From positions 1 to 45,560 of the IMG/VR virus record IMGVR_UViG_3300018877_000021: a stretch of DNA of 45,560 nucleotides. One strand, 5' to 3'. Under the pieces are notes generated by a model. The model did not search any database, was not told the origin of the DNA, and was given only the letters and a program-made list of their open reading frames with translations. This stretch comes from a virus. Shown here in pieces: positions 8,150-17,051 of the stretch; positions within the stretch are counted from its first letter, which is position 1; every line of letters begins with the position of its first letter. The translations under genes and the position numbers were made by a program.

Positions 8150-8923
8150 ATGCCACAATTACAAAATGATGCAGGTCACGGTTCTAACACTTACCCGCCA
8201 AGTAAAGGGGTTCCCGGGCTTGCCGAGCATACATTCAATGCAGCTGTCGGAAGTGAGCTGAAACGATTGCTCGCTGGAAAAATTCCAACGTATGAAGCCC
8301 AAACATTTGGAGCAAAAGATGTAGCGTTATCTACTCGGACCAATTTATATAATGCCCAGTACATTAAAAATAAAGATGCTATTGGGATGTCTCATCATGC
8401 TAATGCTAATAAAGACCCAGACAGAAGGGGAATTGGTATCTTCTATTGGCACAAAAGCAGCAAAGGGAAAAAACTAGCTGAAATGATTCTTGAGGAATAT
8501 AAAAAAGAGTTTCCAGATCGTGAAAAATATCCGATTTGGGGAGACGGCTTGTTTCCTTGTGTGCCTGGCACTTGGACAAACCTCCACATGTGCCGGGAAA
8601 CATCAGCGCCTTTTGTCTTGATCGAGTGGGAGTTCATGACGAACAAAGAATCATTAGAATTATTGAAATCGGATGATTACAGGAAACGCTGTGCGCTGGT
8701 TGCAGCTCGTGTGGCTTGTCATTGGTATGGAATACAATTTGAAGACAAGGAGGTAGCTAAGGTGGCAAATAAAACGAATGAAAAAGCAGATGCGTTTGCT
8801 CAGGAGGCTCAAGAATGGGCGAAAGAAATGGGTATCTCTGATGGATCTAACCCTCGTGATTCAATCACAAGACAAGAAATTTGGGTTATGCTGCAACGAT
8901 TATATGAGAAAGTGAAAGGATAA
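8150..8923 (+). CDS. Endolysin, N-acetylmuramoyl-L-alanine amidase (Amidase_3)
   Basis: A 257-residue zinc amidase that would cut the bond between N-acetylmuramic acid and the stem peptide. Candidate zinc ligands are His10 in NDAGHGS, Glu26 and His82 or His83 in SHHAN. The catalytic glutamate is in LIEWEF (159-161). The catalytic domain spans about 1-195. A linker rich in Lys and Glu follows, then a C-terminal SLH-like half repeat (AQEWAKEMGISDGS through RLYEKVKG) that may anchor the enzyme to the wall. There is no signal peptide, as expected for a holin-dependent endolysin. It is the last gene of the lysis cassette. Confidence 0.9.
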   Translation: MPQLQNDAGHGSNTYPPSKGVPGLAEHTFNAAVGSELKRLLAGKIPTYEAQTFGAKDVALSTRTNLYNAQYIKNKDAIGMSHHANANKDPDRRGIGIFYWHKSSKGKKLAEMILEEYKKEFPDREKYPIWGDGLFPCVPGTWTNLHMCRETSAPFVLIEWEFMTNKESLELLKSDDYRKRCALVAARVACHWYGIQFEDKEVAKVANKTNEKADAFAQEAQEWAKEMGISDGSNPRDSITRQEIWVMLQRLYEKVKG

Positions 8924-8945: not shown

Positions 8946-9034
8946 GTATAAAACTTGATTCTGCTGGTTAAACTAAAAACCCATGGATGTTGTACTCATG
9001 TTGAAAGCCCTTCTCATGCGAGAGGGGCTTTTTT
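8946..9034 (+). repeat. Accessory-region repeat element R1 (promoter-like box plus terminator hairpin)
   Basis: This is the first of three related 80-95 bp elements. It has TGTATAA, then TTGATTC, then TGGTTAAACTAAAAA, a variable middle, and the hairpin CCCTTCTC/GAGAGGGG followed by a T run. R2 (9371) and R3 (10040) share the ends and differ in the middle. Its hairpin terminates the lysis operon. Confidence 0.6.
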
Positions 9035-9035
9035 A
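9004..9035 (+). terminator. Rho-independent terminator after the endolysin
   Basis: AAAGCCCTTCTC pairs with GAGAGGGGCTTT around a short ATGC loop (one G-T pair), followed by five or more T. The T run overlaps the stop codon of the opposite-strand XRE gene. Confidence 0.85.
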
Positions 9036-9263
9036 TATATCCCAGAAATCAGAATAATACACTGAATACCCCGATTTTCTTAAAGTTGTAATAACTTTTT
9101 GTGCTGCGAGGAGGGAAGGGTGCTTCTGCTTCAAATAACACAACCGAATGACTGTAATGATGTCTACCCCACTTTTTTCTGCCAATTCTTTTTGCGAGAT
9201 GGAATGCTCGATTAAAAAATTTCCAAGCATCGACTTTTCTCGCCTTGATATAGACAAATTCAT
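9033..9263 (-). CDS. Small XRE-family helix-turn-helix protein
   Basis: A 76-residue protein with a Cro/CI-type helix-turn-helix at about 20-55 (SISQKELAEKSGVDIITVIR). It ends in SVYYSDFWDI, and a second small XRE protein at 10729-10953 ends in IKSDDFWDM, so the two are probably related accessory regulators. It is transcribed toward the lysis genes and lies between repeat elements R1 and R2. The target is unknown; control of the divergent LexA/WYL-like pair or of the accessory genes is possible. Confidence 0.75.
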   Translation of the reverse strand: MNLSISRREKSMLGNFLIEHSISQKELAEKSGVDIITVIRLCYLKQKHPSLLAAQKVITTLRKSGYSVYYSDFWDI

Positions 9264-9370: not shown

Positions 9371-9466
9371 GTATAATAATTGATTCAATTGGTTAAAATA
9401 AAAATACAACATGAAAGCTTTGTAGCCATCAAAAATCGCCCTTCTCTATGAGAGGGGCTTTTTTTC
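9371..9466 (+). repeat. Accessory-region repeat element R2
   Basis: GTATAATAATTGATTC is followed by TGGTTAAAATAAAAA, a variable middle and GCCCTTCTC/GAGAGGGGC with seven T. The perfect TATAAT at 9372-9377 gives a promoter-to-terminator span of about 80 nt with no ORF, as expected of a small RNA. The -35 region (TTGTTT at 9351) has only a 15-bp spacer. Confidence 0.6.
9438..9465 (+). terminator. Rho-independent terminator of element R2
   Basis: GCCCTTCTC/GAGAGGGGC with a TAT loop, preceded by five A and followed by seven T, so it may act in both directions. Confidence 0.75.
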
Positions 9467-9508: not shown

Positions 9509-9560
9509 AGAACGAATGTTCGTAAAATGGCTTGAAATCGAATATTTGTTCGTATAAAAT
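9509..9560 (+). promoter_or_regulatory. Promoter with two LexA-type dyads
   Basis: TTGAAA (9532-9537) and TAAAAT (9555-9560) are 17 bp apart. One dyad, GAACGAATGTTC, lies just upstream (9510-9521) and a second, CGAATATTTGTTCG (9539-9552), fills the spacer. Both resemble the Bacillus SOS box, GAAC-N4-GTTC, the second with one arm mismatch. Repressor binding would block the promoter of the WYL-like and LexA-like genes, so damage-inducible expression is likely. Confidence 0.7.
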
Positions 9561-9581
9561 AATGGTAAAGGAGGGAACGGT

Positions 9582-9809
9582 ATGAGACATTTATTGAACC
9601 AGTCATTGAAAGAAGTAAAGCCTGTAGAAATCATTTATCAGAGTAAGGACCTATCATTTTCGAAACGCAGGATATTGGTAAAAGCCATAAATGAAAAGTA
9701 CGTAAAAGGTTTTTGTTTTAAGAAAAGGCAGATTAGGACTTTCAATTTGGATTCTATTCTCGCTGTTGCTCCGATTAAGGATAAAAGGGAGGAACTCTTT
9801 TATGCCTAA
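9582..9809 (+). CDS. Small WYL-like domain protein
   Basis: A 75-residue basic protein with AAAGGAGGG ahead of its ATG. Residues 13-66 read like a minimal WYL domain: VEIIYQSKD, a basic turn, then KGFCFKKRQIRTFNLDSIL, where RTFxLDxI is the typical end of the fold. WYL domains bind nucleic acid or ligands and are found in transcription regulators and in defence and CRISPR control. It has no helix-turn-helix of its own, but the next gene, which overlaps it by 8 bases, is a bare LexA-like DNA-binding domain, so the two may form one split regulator. It is expressed from a promoter covered by LexA-type dyads. Confidence 0.65.
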   Translation: MRHLLNQSLKEVKPVEIIYQSKDLSFSKRRILVKAINEKYVKGFCFKKRQIRTFNLDSILAVAPIKDKREELFYA

Positions 9810-10044
9810 AGAATTAACAGTTAGACAGACAAGTATTCTAAATACAGTTTGTGATTATATAGATAAAAAGGGTTATCCACCTTCAGTTAGAGATATAGGT
9901 GAAATACAAAATTTAGCTTCACCTTCCACAGTTCTTAATCATTTGAACCAATTGAAAAAGAAGGGATATATAACCTGGTTACCGGGGCAACCTAGAACAT
10001 TGAGAGTATTAAAAGCCAATAAGAATTGTTTGGATGAGGATTAA
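9802..10044 (+). CDS. Stand-alone LexA-type DNA-binding domain protein
   Basis: An 80-residue protein that matches only the N-terminal winged helix of LexA: ELTVRQTSILN, then KKGYPPSVRDIGE, LASPSTVLNHLNQLKKKGYI and PRTL. The S24 peptidase half, with the Ala-Gly cleavage site and Ser/Lys pair, is absent, and no cysteine or other fusion replaces it. The chosen ATG follows GGGAGG at good spacing and overlaps the WYL-like gene by 8 bases. It lies behind two LexA-type dyads. It could compete with host LexA, repress its own promoter, or keep SOS genes shut when host LexA is cleaved. DNA binding is inferred from the family. Confidence 0.8.
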   Translation: MPKELTVRQTSILNTVCDYIDKKGYPPSVRDIGEIQNLASPSTVLNHLNQLKKKGYITWLPGQPRTLRVLKANKNCLDED

Positions 10045-10125
10045 ATATACTGGTTACACTAAAAACACGCCATGAGGGACCTTCCTCCACCTAGAAAAAA
10101 ACCCTTCTCACAAGAGAGGGGCTTT
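10040..10125. repeat. Accessory-region repeat element R3
   Basis: ATTAAATATACTGGTTACACTAAAAA matches the heads of R1 and R2, and CCCTTCTC-ACAA-GAGAGGGGCTTT matches their tails; the middle differs. It overlaps the stop of the LexA-like gene. The A run before the hairpin gives seven T on the minus strand, so here it also terminates the membrane-protein gene at 10130. Confidence 0.6.
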
Positions 10126-10702: not shown

Positions 10703-10730
10703 CAAAAACCCCTTTATTCAAAAGGGGTTT
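10703..10730 (-). terminator. Terminator of the XRE gene at 10729
   Basis: AAACCCCTTT/AAAGGGGTTT (10 pairs, 5-base loop) is followed on the minus strand by five T. Confidence 0.75.
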
Positions 10731-10953
10731 ACATATCCCAGAAATCATCACTTTTAATATTTGGATCAATCTCTCTTAGAGCAGTAATTATTTTTTTCAT
10801 GGTTTTGTATGTAGGGGACCTATCTTTATTACTGGTTAAATCTCCAATCGTGTTCTTATTTAAACCGGTTTTTTTCATCAGCCAAGCCTGAGAAACCCCC
10901 TTCTTATCCAGCCATTTTCCTAATTTGGTGCGTGGTTTTCCTAATCCAAACAT
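10729..10953 (-). CDS. Small XRE-family helix-turn-helix protein
   Basis: A 74-residue protein with a Cro/CI-like helix-turn-helix at about 18-48 (GVSQAWLMKKTGLNKNTIGD). It ends in DDFWDM, like the XRE protein at 9033-9263, and its N-terminus (GKPRTKLGKWLDKK) is basic. AAAAGGAGAG is upstream of the ATG. It is transcribed away from the FtsK-like gene, and the 310-bp gap between them could hold its operators. A regulatory role for the cassette to the right is plausible and unproven. Confidence 0.75.
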   Translation of the reverse strand: MFGLGKPRTKLGKWLDKKGVSQAWLMKKTGLNKNTIGDLTSNKDRSPTYKTMKKIITALREIDPNIKSDDFWDM

Positions 10954-11263
10954 GTTTGTTCACTCTCCTTTTTATCTAGTCATGTCCAAAAATCCTAAAA
11001 AATAAAACCATTTTTCCTGTAAAATGCGGAATATAGGACAAACAGTGTCTAATAACCTTTATCATACGAGTTAAATGGCGAATCAAAATTCCAATCATTC
11101 TTCTTTTCAACCCTTCGAAACTATCCTTCTACTTAAAATTCCATATCAGACATATCAAACGAACAATCAAAACATTGATACGGCAACGATTCGCCCGTGT
11201 CCTAATCCTTCTTTTGAAGCGGGACTTTATCTACAGATAAACAAGAAGAGAGGTGGGAAATTG
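10954..11263. other. Non-coding divergent region upstream of the FtsK-like gene
   Basis: An open frame continues the FtsK-like gene upstream to 11075, but its codons look unlike a protein and no RBS precedes it. The stretch holds TTGATA at 11175 without a good -10 partner, and a GACA-AACAG-TGTC inverted repeat near 11037-11049. Promoters for both directions should lie here, but I cannot place them with confidence. A transfer origin could also lie here if the Replic_Relax-like protein is active. Confidence 0.4.
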
Positions 11264-12601
11264 ATGTTACTGGAAATCGCCTCATCATCGGTGGTTGGCG
11301 GGATTTACTTAATTGCAAAATTCGGAGGGAAGAGGGGAAGGAAAAATGATTACGAAAAAATCATCCGGATCGCGGAAGCTTGCAATTTAAAAAAAGGAGA
11401 TGACTCCATCCAGCTTCTTCGCAAGACACAGAACAAACGATTTGTTGAATATGTTTTCCGGATTCCTTTGGGCTTGTCCTTTCAACAGTTCGAAAAACAT
11501 TTTGAGGAACTCCAGGACGGATTGAATAACAAAAAGAATGAACACACATTTGATTACAAAGGTCTTAAAAAGCTGTTGCTTTATTTGAAAAACAATCAAT
11601 TCAACCGGGAAACCTTTAGCAATGATTTGAGGGAAATGTTCTTTGAACCGAACGAGATCAGGAAACGAGTTAAGATGAGTTATGACGGAACGCTCAAAAT
11701 TAAAGTGTTTGATAAGGAATTGGAAAACATGATTCCATTCAATGAGGAATTTTTTAAGGGTTGCGAAGGCTGGTCTATCCCCTTGGGGGATGATGGTGAG
11801 AATTTTCTTAAATGGAAAATAGGTCGTGAACATGTGGGGGTAGCGGGAGGAACCAGGCAAGGGAAAACCCAGTTCCTTAAAATGCTCATTACATCTTTAG
11901 TTAAATTGTACCCCGATAAAGTGAAATTATCCTTAATAGATTTAAAAGGTGGCTTGTCCTTCCAGCGGTACAGCAATTTGAAGCAAACAGCCAATTTTGC
12001 CCATGACATACACGGGGCAACCAACGTCCTGGATGCTGTCTATAATGAAATGATCAAAAGACAGGAAAAATGTGCTGAATTAGGAGTAGAAACAGCAGAG
12101 GAAGCAGGGATTCACGAGAAACATTTTATCATCATTGACGAAGCAGCCGAACTTTCCCCAGTCATCAAGAGAGATGAAAGAAAGAAGCGCCACCAATGCC
12201 AGCAACGTCTATCAGAACTAGCGAGGATTGGGGCAGGGCTTAACTATATCATTATCTTTGCTACCCAATATCCTACAGTCGATGTCATGAGCAAAGATAT
12301 AAAATCCAATCTCAATCAAGTCGTATGTTTCAAACTTAGAAGCGGTAACCAATCACAAGTCGTTCTCGATGAATGGGGAGCGGAAAAACTACCATGTAGA
12401 GGCAGGGCCATAGTGATTGATGGAGTAGAAAAGCATGTCATTCAAGCACCTTTAATGGATGATTCGTATATCGAGAAGGTCATTACCCCTCATATCAATA
12501 TCAAACCACGAAAGGAGAATAAGGATGAAAAGCACGATCAAAAGGCAGAAAAGGGAAGAGAAGATCTTATTATCATTAAAAAAACTTCATTATCTGACTA
12601 G
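11264..12601 (+). CDS. FtsK/SpoIIIE-type DNA translocase-like ATPase
   Basis: From the ATG after AGAGGTGGG the protein has 445 residues. One membrane-like segment (ASSSVVGGIYLIAKF) lies near the N-terminus. The ATPase domain shows Walker A GGTRQGKT at about 195-202 and Walker B FIIIDEAAE at about 288-296, with RLSELARIGAGLNY and FATQYP downstream, as in FtsK/SpoIIIE and the coupling ATPases of Gram-positive conjugative elements (TcpA/ConQ-like). It lacks the four N-terminal membrane helices and gamma domain of chromosomal FtsK. The Replic_Relax-like gene starts inside its 3' end. It may move DNA at the membrane, or act in plasmid-like maintenance of the prophage. Confidence 0.85.
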   Translation: MLLEIASSSVVGGIYLIAKFGGKRGRKNDYEKIIRIAEACNLKKGDDSIQLLRKTQNKRFVEYVFRIPLGLSFQQFEKHFEELQDGLNNKKNEHTFDYKGLKKLLLYLKNNQFNRETFSNDLREMFFEPNEIRKRVKMSYDGTLKIKVFDKELENMIPFNEEFFKGCEGWSIPLGDDGENFLKWKIGREHVGVAGGTRQGKTQFLKMLITSLVKLYPDKVKLSLIDLKGGLSFQRYSNLKQTANFAHDIHGATNVLDAVYNEMIKRQEKCAELGVETAEEAGIHEKHFIIIDEAAELSPVIKRDERKKRHQCQQRLSELARIGAGLNYIIIFATQYPTVDVMSKDIKSNLNQVVCFKLRSGNQSQVVLDEWGAEKLPCRGRAIVIDGVEKHVIQAPLMDDSYIEKVITPHINIKPRKENKDEKHDQKAEKGREDLIIIKKTSLSD

Positions 12602-15166: not shown

Positions 15167-16207
15167 TTAGTCGAATACGCTCATAACTTCCTGTTTGCGT
15201 TCCACATACAAATGCCCGTATGTATTAGCCGTTTGTTTTATGTCATCATGCCTCATTAGTTCTTTGACTAGGTAGATATCTACCCCTTTATTTATTAAAT
15301 AGGTGGCATAACTATGACGTAAATCGTGGATTCGTAATTCTGGAAAAACGATCTTAAAATGTTTATGATAATGTGAATAGTGATAAGGTGCTAACCCACC
15401 AAACACATATACATCCTCATTGAATCCGTATATTTTATCTGCGGATTCTTTTTTTATTTCTGAAAGCATTTCACTTATAAACAAAGGAAAAGGTACATAT
15501 CCTTCGCTACCAGCTGTTTTAGGAGACGTGGGCATCCTCGTTTTTATATCTAACGTCTTGCTCACGTATAATTGATTCTTTGTTAAATCAATGTCTTTCC
15601 ATGTGAGAGCCAAAGCTTCACCAATCCGTAAGCCGGTATAAAACAATAAACGTGTCAATTCTTTGTAGAAGTGCATATCAAATTCTGTTACCCTTTTTTC
15701 GAATTCCTCACGTTTGATGTAGTTTATTTTCGGCCGAACACGCTGGATAGGATCAACGATCAAAGTTGGATCTATTTTCAATCCGAAAAATTTAACTGAG
15801 TGATTGATTAAGATTTTGAAATTACTGTATACTGTTCGGGCACTATTTAGTGATTCAAAATGATTTTCTAGTTTGGTTTTAAAATCCATTACATGCTGCA
15901 CGTTAATATCCTTAACTTTCATATGCCCGAAAAATGGTTTTATATGCTTATTGTACTCATTGGTTCTACGTCGAATAGTTTTTTCCTTTAGTTTCTTATG
16001 TTTGATGTTGTGTTCAAATACTTCATCGAATGTCACTTCATCTGAAAAAGCATTTTTGATACTTGCAATAAATTCAGCTTCAGCTATGACAGCTTCTTTT
16101 CTCCCTTTAAATCCTCTTTTCAGCTTTTGTTTGTTCCGGCCGTACATATCTTTATAACGAACTTTAAAATACCAGGTATTACGTTCTTTATCTTTATAAA
16201 CAGGCAT
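15167..16207 (-). CDS. int: Tyrosine recombinase (phage integrase)
   Basis: A 346-residue integrase of the Tn916/phage type. The N-terminal 45 residues are the AP2-like arm-binding domain ([16 protein letters not shown]). The core-binding SAM-like domain spans about 55-150. The catalytic domain has Arg194 (TGLRIGEAL), Lys230 region (SPKTAG), His294 and Arg297 (HDLRHSYA), His320 (MRHDD) and Tyr330 (NTYGHLY), so the full R-K-H-R-H-Y set is present. It would integrate the phage at attP, probably located beside the 3' end of the gene at 14.95-15.16 kb. The gene ends within the arm-repeat region and is transcribed with the ImmA/repressor genes or from its own promoter. Confidence 0.95.
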
Positions 16208-16262: not shown

Positions 16263-16724
16263 TTAAGGAATTTCTTGTATGTTGAGTGGATCAAAGGTAA
16301 TTTTATAACCTTTATACAAGGTATAAAGGCCATAGCGAGCATTATAGTGATCAAGTGCATTTTTTAGATATTCAGCAGTAACTTCTAAATAAATGCATAT
16401 ATCATCAAGAGTTCTATATCCAAGTTCGAAACATTTGATAAGGTCTTCTAGAGAAACTATTTTTTCATATCCCCAGCGTCTTGCTAGTAGCTCTAGTTTT
16501 ATGTTCTGAACATTATCCAACTCAATAATATCCCCATGGGTAGTTTCATAGTGACCAATTTCTTCTGCTAAAATACCATGCCTTTCATAATGATTTCTGT
16601 TTTTATTCAATAAAATTTCATTGTCATAATAAAGGCCTGATAAACCACGAGGAAGACTTCTTGTTTCTCTAATGGTCAGGTGTTGATACTCCATCATCAA
16701 ACGTTCGTACCGCATATCAAACAC
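16263..16724 (-). CDS. ImmA/IrrE-type metallopeptidase
   Basis: A 153-residue protein of the COG2856 family. In ICEBs1 the ImmA protease cleaves the adjacent ImmR repressor to induce the element. The zinc motif reads LAEEIGHYETTHG at about 52-64, so Glu54 replaces the first His of HExxH, while Glu55 and His58 remain and His63 could help bind metal. Such variants are known to me from phage ImmA-like proteins and may be active or inactive. The gene starts directly at the end of the repressor gene (adjacent, no gap), so they are translationally coupled, which supports a repressor/anti-repressor pair. Confidence 0.85.
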   Translation of the reverse strand: MFDMRYERLMMEYQHLTIRETRSLPRGLSGLYYDNEILLNKNRNHYERHGILAEEIGHYETTHGDIIELDNVQNIKLELLARRWGYEKIVSLEDLIKCFELGYRTLDDICIYLEVTAEYLKNALDHYNARYGLYTLYKGYKITFDPLNIQEIP

Positions 16725-17051
16725 TCACTTTCTTTGTGACTTAATAAATTCTATATATTTTTTGATATCCTCCATTTCATCCTCGGTGACATCATCATCT
16801 ATATGAGCTGCAATAGTTTCTATATTTTTTCTAGGTTCCCTATCCATTAACCAATCAAGCGAAACATTGAAATAATCAGCATAAAGATTTGCGTCATCGA
16901 TATCTGGTGTTGCTTGTCCTTTCTCCCAACGACTAATAGAACTTTTACTTATTTTCGAACCGTATTTTTCTGAAAAAACTTGAGCTAATTGTTCAAGAGA
17001 CATCTTTCGGGATTGTCTCAACATTTTAATATTTTCCGAAAAGGAAGCCAT
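16725..17051 (-). CDS. CI-like repressor (XRE family)
   Basis: A 108-residue protein. The helix-turn-helix spans about 7-60 (MSLEQLAQVFSEKYG then ISKSSISRWEKGQATP), followed by DANLYADYFNVSLDWLMDRE, the common end of XRE repressors. The acidic C-terminal tail (DDDVTEDEMEDI) is a likely target of the ImmA-like peptidase, by analogy with ImmR of ICEBs1. It has no S24 peptidase domain, so induction would not go through RecA self-cleavage. It is divergent from the Cro-like gene across an operator region. Confidence 0.9.
   Translation of the reverse strand: MASFSENIKMLRQSRKMSLEQLAQVFSEKYGSKISKSSISRWEKGQATPDIDDANLYADYFNVSLDWLMDREPRKNIETIAAHIDDDVTEDEMEDIKKYIEFIKSQRK

Follow-up and report, generated by a model that had tools for sequence, protein, structure and literature searches.

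A mini-WYL gene overlapping a stand-alone LexA-type winged-helix gene behind paired SOS boxes in a Bacillus-type phage

Described LexA- and WYL-type regulators and the phage locus

The LexA/SOS response and the WYL/single-stranded DNA (ssDNA) response of the PafBC type have been described as separate routes of the response to DNA damage. On the LexA side, the characterised analogue is gp6 of the tectivirus GIL01, a truncated LexA homologue which activates the late promoter P3, needs DNA damage and recognises an operator (GaCACAn-nTGTGaC) that differs from the SOS box (PMC6182141). Stand-alone LexA DNA-binding domains (hereafter, heads) are in themselves common among viruses and are already present in PHROGs: the protein studied here matches PHROG 3502 (E 4.7e-19), which carries no function, and PHROG 362 (1.2e-13), annotated only as 'transcriptional repressor', with no WYL link noted for either family. 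On the WYL side, PafBC, DriD, CapW and BrxR combine in one chain a WYL domain, a winged helix of their own and further C-terminal parts, the former two in a DNA-damage setting, and small SOS-controlled proteins of the WYL superfamily are encoded by the YolD/UvrX operons of Bacillus.

The window analysed here, that is, the whole stretch of 45,560 bases, is a virus record with the gene layout typical of a temperate tailed phage, including replication genes in addition to those listed in Table 1, and the phage is of the Bacillus type. Behind its lysis genes lies a unit of two genes, encoding a bare WYL domain (mini-WYL) and a LexA-type winged helix (LexA-like protein), which is set between two terminator-like hairpins and is independent in the phage, as cargo ('moron') genes are. 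Both open reading frames proposed in a first-pass annotation of this DNA were found at the positions given in Table 1, and they overlap by 8 bp at ATGCCTAA. What appears to be new here is the pairing of a LexA head with a mini-WYL in one SOS operon, the stand-alone head itself being already known. Like gp6, in a comparison made through PMC6182141 only, the window protein is a damage-linked phage LexA DNA-binding domain which stands alone, lacks the peptidase and appears to have altered DNA recognition. However, gp6 lies in an early operon, activates P3 and has no WYL partner reported in PMC6182141, whereas the gene for the window protein overlaps a mini-WYL gene and has paired SOS boxes of its own. 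The open-access papers searched held no description of a paired SOS operon with a mini-WYL, which is weak evidence of absence.

Table 1. Positions of the two-gene unit, its control elements and selected phage genes in the window
Feature	Position	Strand	Basis or remark
Amidase	8150-8923
Terminator-like hairpin ending the preceding unit	9438-9458	+
SOS box 1, AGAACGAATGTTCG, 5' of the -35 hexamer	9509-9522	.	conserved place in homologues
-35 hexamer, TTGAAA, between the two SOS boxes	9532-9537	+
SOS box 2, CGAATATTTGTTCG, within the -35/-10 spacer	9539-9552	.	30 bp from box 1, start to start
-10 hexamer, TAAAAT, 17-nt spacer	9555-9560	+
Ribosome-binding site AGGAGGG, mini-WYL gene	9569-9575	+	sequence
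Mini-WYL gene, 75 aa	9582-9809	+	Pfam WYL, AlphaFold2, Foldseek
Ribosome-binding site GGGAGG, LexA-like gene	9787-9792	+	sequence
Stand-alone LexA winged-helix gene, 80 aa, without peptidase domain	9802-10044	+	profile match, model
Terminator-like hairpin 3' of the operon	10102-10121	+
FtsK-type ATPase	11075-12601
Integrase	15167-16207
M78 (ImmA-like) peptidase	16263-16724
HTH repressor, RstR/phrog_8-like	16725-17051

The two hairpins and a third one at 9003-9032 are near-identical (CCCTTCTC..GAGAGGGG) and divide small units from one another; a similar terminator hairpin is found 5' of the WYL/LexA-like pair at another locus (L142). Small XRE-type genes lie on either side of the operon (9033-9263 and 10729-10953, both on the minus strand), and the order of the pair, a convergent XRE gene and FtsK is common to the window and to loci L008, L038 and L154. 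The HTH repressor gene adjoins that of the M78 peptidase, and the two seem to form a switch of the phage's own which does not depend on SOS boxes. No near relative of the region was found in the phage collection.

Promoter and SOS boxes

The first-pass annotation had noted two LexA-type dyads at the promoter shared by the two genes. Both boxes are real, each with one mismatch to CGAAC-N4-GTTCG, although the second reads GAAT-N4-GTTC and not GAAC-N4-GTTC. They are the only boxes in the window with one mismatch or fewer, and boxes with up to two mismatches are present in unremarkable number (11 found, 11.5 expected). Because boxes of such quality are not rare within the window alone, we examined relatives of the mini-WYL gene. 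An SOS box was located within about 130 bp upstream of 75 of the 78 mini-WYL genes taken from genomes and viruses other than this one, compared to 1.9% expected from the background density, and the density of boxes upstream of these genes, which form a consistent set, was 81 times the background. Furthermore, 360 kb of mini-WYL loci contain 68 boxes with no more than one mismatch, 63 of which fall within the short upstream stretches. A chance origin of the boxes, conceivable from the window alone, is ruled out by these homologous genes.

The arrangement of the boxes is also recurrent. In a set of 91 distinct mini-WYL genes, one or more boxes lie in the 130 bp upstream of 87, and two boxes upstream of 60, with a spacing of 30 bp in 25 of the two-box promoters, 29 and 27 bp in 8 each, and 31 and 23 bp in 6 each, so that 39 of the 60 fall between 29 and 31 bp. 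In many relatives, the promoter reads box, TTGAA, box, TATAAT, the same order as in the window. The promoter carries what marks the SOS regulon of Bacillus, namely, boxes of the CGAAC-N4-GTTCG type, and, given that box placement is conserved among relatives, the operon is very probably controlled by host LexA, as had been proposed in the first-pass annotation. Host LexA would hold the promoter shut through boxes which bracket the -35 hexamer and fill the spacer, and damage would open it. The further proposal that the operon tunes prophage induction through such boxes found no support, given that the window has no box of this quality beyond the two and that the phage carries an HTH repressor and an M78 peptidase of its own.

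Sequence features of the two proteins

The LexA-like protein matches the LexA_DNA_bind profile (PF01726) with 80.5 bits (E = 7.5e-23, cut-off 23.7) over residues 3-66, corresponding to profile positions 2-65 of 65, and no Peptidase_S24 was found in a search of all frames of the 45.6-kb record, which bears out the description of a LexA winged helix that lacks the peptidase half. That an S24 half has been lost to a sequencing error is very unlikely, considering the lack of S24 in the record and the terminator-like site which follows the gene. The LexA repressor equivalog TIGR00498 is matched with 78.9 bits, below its threshold of 110.95, and without the S24 autopeptidase. The structural model (pLDDT 81.8) has as its best PDB matches LexA structures exclusively, including LexA-DNA complexes (3jso at 0.7 A). 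Because the peptidase is lacking, RecA would be unable to switch this protein off. When used as a single query in the viral search, the protein returned no matches, and alignment queries were needed; among the best 80 viral matches, 60 are stand-alone LexA heads.

No variation was seen in the recognition helix, S-S-S-T-V-H-G-H-L, among 33 full-length host LexAs (the last two residues could be aligned in 31 and are identical in all 31). The window protein has S-P-S-T-V-L-N-H-L, with L and N aligning with the host H and G, positions which, going by LexA-DNA structures, correspond to base-reading residues of E. coli LexA. The wing is changed as well, with W where the host proteins have R, and PRTLR in the place of PRAIE. 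Thus, the winged helix is what the window protein and full-length LexA have in common, and the S24 domain, the helix residues and the wing are what set them apart. Across 27 stand-alone heads, the framework residues S, S, T and V/I are kept, whereas the second S, H and G vary, with entropies of 2.1, 2.7 and 3.3 bits, respectively, versus 0 in host LexAs; the wing R is replaced by W in 18 of the 27, and PRAIE has mostly become PRT(L/I). The simplest reading of these substitutions is that the LexA-like head has an altered DNA specificity, and stand-alone heads in general appear to change specificity quickly.

These observations bear on the idea, put forward in the first-pass annotation, that the protein is a non-cleavable LexA mimic which binds SOS boxes once LexA has been cut and shuts the SOS genes again. 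Such a role would fit the LexA-family fold, modelled in close match to LexA-DNA complexes, the two SOS boxes in the protein's own promoter and the host-like helix retained by certain other stand-alone phage heads, such as that of Wrath (SSSTVHGHL). However, the window protein lacks the presumed base-reading residues of the 33 host LexAs, and its wing differs from theirs. In addition, LexA dimerises poorly without its C-terminal domain. The characterised analogue, GIL01 gp6, also binds a different palindrome (PMC6182141). With helix and wing changed in this way, the idea is weakened, and we regard mimicry as possible but disfavoured and, on balance, improbable.

The partner had been described as WYL-like, and this assignment stands: the mini-WYL protein matches the WYL profile (PF13280) with 25.0 bits (cut-off 21.8), and its AlphaFold2 model (pLDDT 88.7) recovers in Foldseek searches against PDB the WYL regulators BrxR, CapW and PafBC as top matches, followed further down the list by ssDNA-bound CapW and DriD, with Hfq among others. 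In sequence comparisons with PDB, the WYL domains of thermophilic Pif1 helicases rank first, ahead of BrxR, CapW and PafBC. Unlike YolD, the mini-WYL is shorter, is often encoded alone or with a LexA-like gene, and matches WYL but not the YolD profile (PF08863); among 25 of its relatives, 18 match WYL and 1 matches YolD.

Five basic residues have been found important for ssDNA binding in PafB (R181, R204, R208, R211 and R214; PMC11804915) and five reported for ssDNA binding in Pif1 (R464, R491, R495, R498 and R501; PMC9964779). Judged by sequence alignment and spacing, these correspond to mini-WYL positions 29, 48, 52, 55 and 58. Within the mini-WYL family, R29 is conserved in 88 of 88 members, R52 in 87 of 88, K or R at position 48 in 85 of 88 and K or R at position 55 in most, whereas position 58 is N, the fifth ssDNA-contact arginine being missing throughout the family. 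The window protein has R29, K48, R52, N55 and S58. Thus, the mini-WYL shares with PafBC, DriD, CapW and BrxR the WYL fold and most of the basic contact positions, but differs from the PafBC/DriD type in that the bare WYL domain and the LexA-type helix are on separate chains, encoded by an operon with SOS boxes. A role of the mini-WYL as a nucleic-acid sensor is plausible from these residues, although, given N55 in the window protein and the missing fifth arginine, ssDNA binding is not assured.

Recurrence of the pair and its possible roles

The mini-WYL is present in 170 of the 193 genomes of one Bacillaceae-type family, that of one relative, and LexA domains in 192 of them. These genomes hold 16 stand-alone LexA-domain loci, 11 of which lie directly behind a mini-WYL (10 intact and 1 decayed), and among the 30 best mini-WYL matches in the genomes of this family, 2 have a LexA neighbour. 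The downstream neighbour of the 91 distinct mini-WYL genes, a set biased towards LexA neighbours since some of the loci were chosen on account of them, is YolD in 24 cases, a stand-alone LexA in 18 and DinB/UvrX in 2, the remaining 47 having no neighbour of these kinds. WYL/LexA-like pairs are found in Bacillaceae chromosomes, in plasmids of B. velezensis and B. subtilis, in phage-like plasmids of Anoxybacillus and Rossellomorea, in Domibacillus and in several IMG/VR contigs. In the mini-WYL tree, the LexA-neighbour label changes 12 times, or at least 4 times when only strongly supported branches are counted, a rough figure given the few columns of the alignment. Since the boxes are conserved and 11 of the 16 stand-alone LexA loci lie behind a mini-WYL, we consider the pair a recurrent SOS operon; because most mini-WYLs have no LexA-like neighbour, the mini-WYL must also act alone or with other partners. 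Present in most genomes of the family, mostly without a LexA-like partner and with paired SOS boxes, the mini-WYL gene looks like an undescribed core SOS gene.

We tentatively favour, as possible though short of probable, a reading in which the two-gene SOS operon makes a second-stage regulator of the DNA damage response and not a copy of LexA. After the promoter has been opened by damage, the operon would yield the mini-WYL together with a translationally coupled LexA-type winged helix that is not switched off by RecA. This winged helix would read an operator different from the SOS box, as the changed base-reading residues and wing suggest, and the two proteins would act together, in effect as a regulator of the WYL type divided between two chains, with the LexA-like protein reading the DNA and the mini-WYL contributing oligomerisation, a nucleic-acid (ssDNA) signal or both. 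Joint action, which had been raised in the first-pass annotation, is consistent with the recurrent pairing and with the WYL fold. A more specific version, in which an ssDNA-sensing mini-WYL and a peptidase-less LexA-type head with its own operator assemble into a bipartite damage transcription factor for a second damage-dependent wave, is doubtful.

Alternatively, the LexA-like protein could be a damage-induced activator which, similar to gp6, turns on a phage promoter, for instance that of the late genes or of the downstream FtsK/replication genes, with the mini-WYL being incidental or auxiliary. The precedent of gp6 activating P3 after damage (PMC6182141) and the convergent XRE and FtsK genes that follow the pair in the window and in the three loci named above are in line with this possibility. 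However, the pair is also present in genomes and plasmids in which the flanks examined contain no phage late genes (L007, and L131-L137 with partial flanks), an HTH repressor/M78 peptidase switch is already present in the phage, and sites of the gp6 type, GACACA-NN-TGTGAC, are at chance level in the window (30 versus 27.8 expected), although the protein may use a different operator. We consider this explanation unlikely. A search for inverted repeats near the XRE/FtsK promoter and in the repressor region did not yield a convincing operator.

The neighbours of other mini-WYL genes point to a different function, in the mutasome of a Y-family polymerase, where the mini-WYL would act as YolD or UmuD do and the LexA-like protein would merely help to control or guide it. 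YolD, a small SOS-controlled member of the WYL superfamily, has been proposed as a UmuD counterpart (PMC4012209, PMC6511836), and YolD, DinB or UvrX genes physically adjoin the mini-WYL in the relatives counted above, with the gene order WYL-LexA-DinB-YolD in Psychrobacillus phage PVJ1 and WYL-DinB-YolD-LexA at locus L024. Nevertheless, the pair usually has no polymerase in the same operon, and the inspected neighbours in the window include no DinB, UvrX or YolD, making an accessory role of this kind distinctly unlikely. Even less credit is due to the notion that the two genes are chance neighbours or decaying remnants with no joint function: decay does occur, with the LexA part broken in L022 and the mini-WYL in L133, but the pair recurs on several branches with promoter layout, gene order and overlap conserved, and we regard this notion as very improbable.

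If the operon indeed makes a second-stage regulator, the combination of a WYL protein and a LexA head would link the LexA/SOS and PafBC-type responses. A small SOS gene which nearly all genomes of at least one Bacillaceae-type family carry, and which is undescribed in the papers searched, would thereby gain a function, and phages would have a damage-timed regulator beyond RecA cleavage, as in the case of GIL01 gp6.

The layout of the pair varies among loci. Its gene order is reversed in L201 and L202, where LexA precedes WYL; in L201 (2986-3374), two SOS boxes 30 bp apart lie upstream. At L038 (3185-3754), two different stand-alone LexA domains are arranged in tandem 3' of one mini-WYL, and in an Aneurinibacillus plasmid (L011, 2339-3180), a mini-WYL comes directly after a full-length lexA. 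Natural fusions of WYL and LexA were not seen. The LexA-like open reading frame of one phage contig (L181) has about 141 residues, with an apparent shortened peptidase part, and in the large replicon of B. velezensis DMB05 (L012, 3001-3234), the mini-WYL lies beside a divergently transcribed S8 peptidase gene, with an SOS box between the two.
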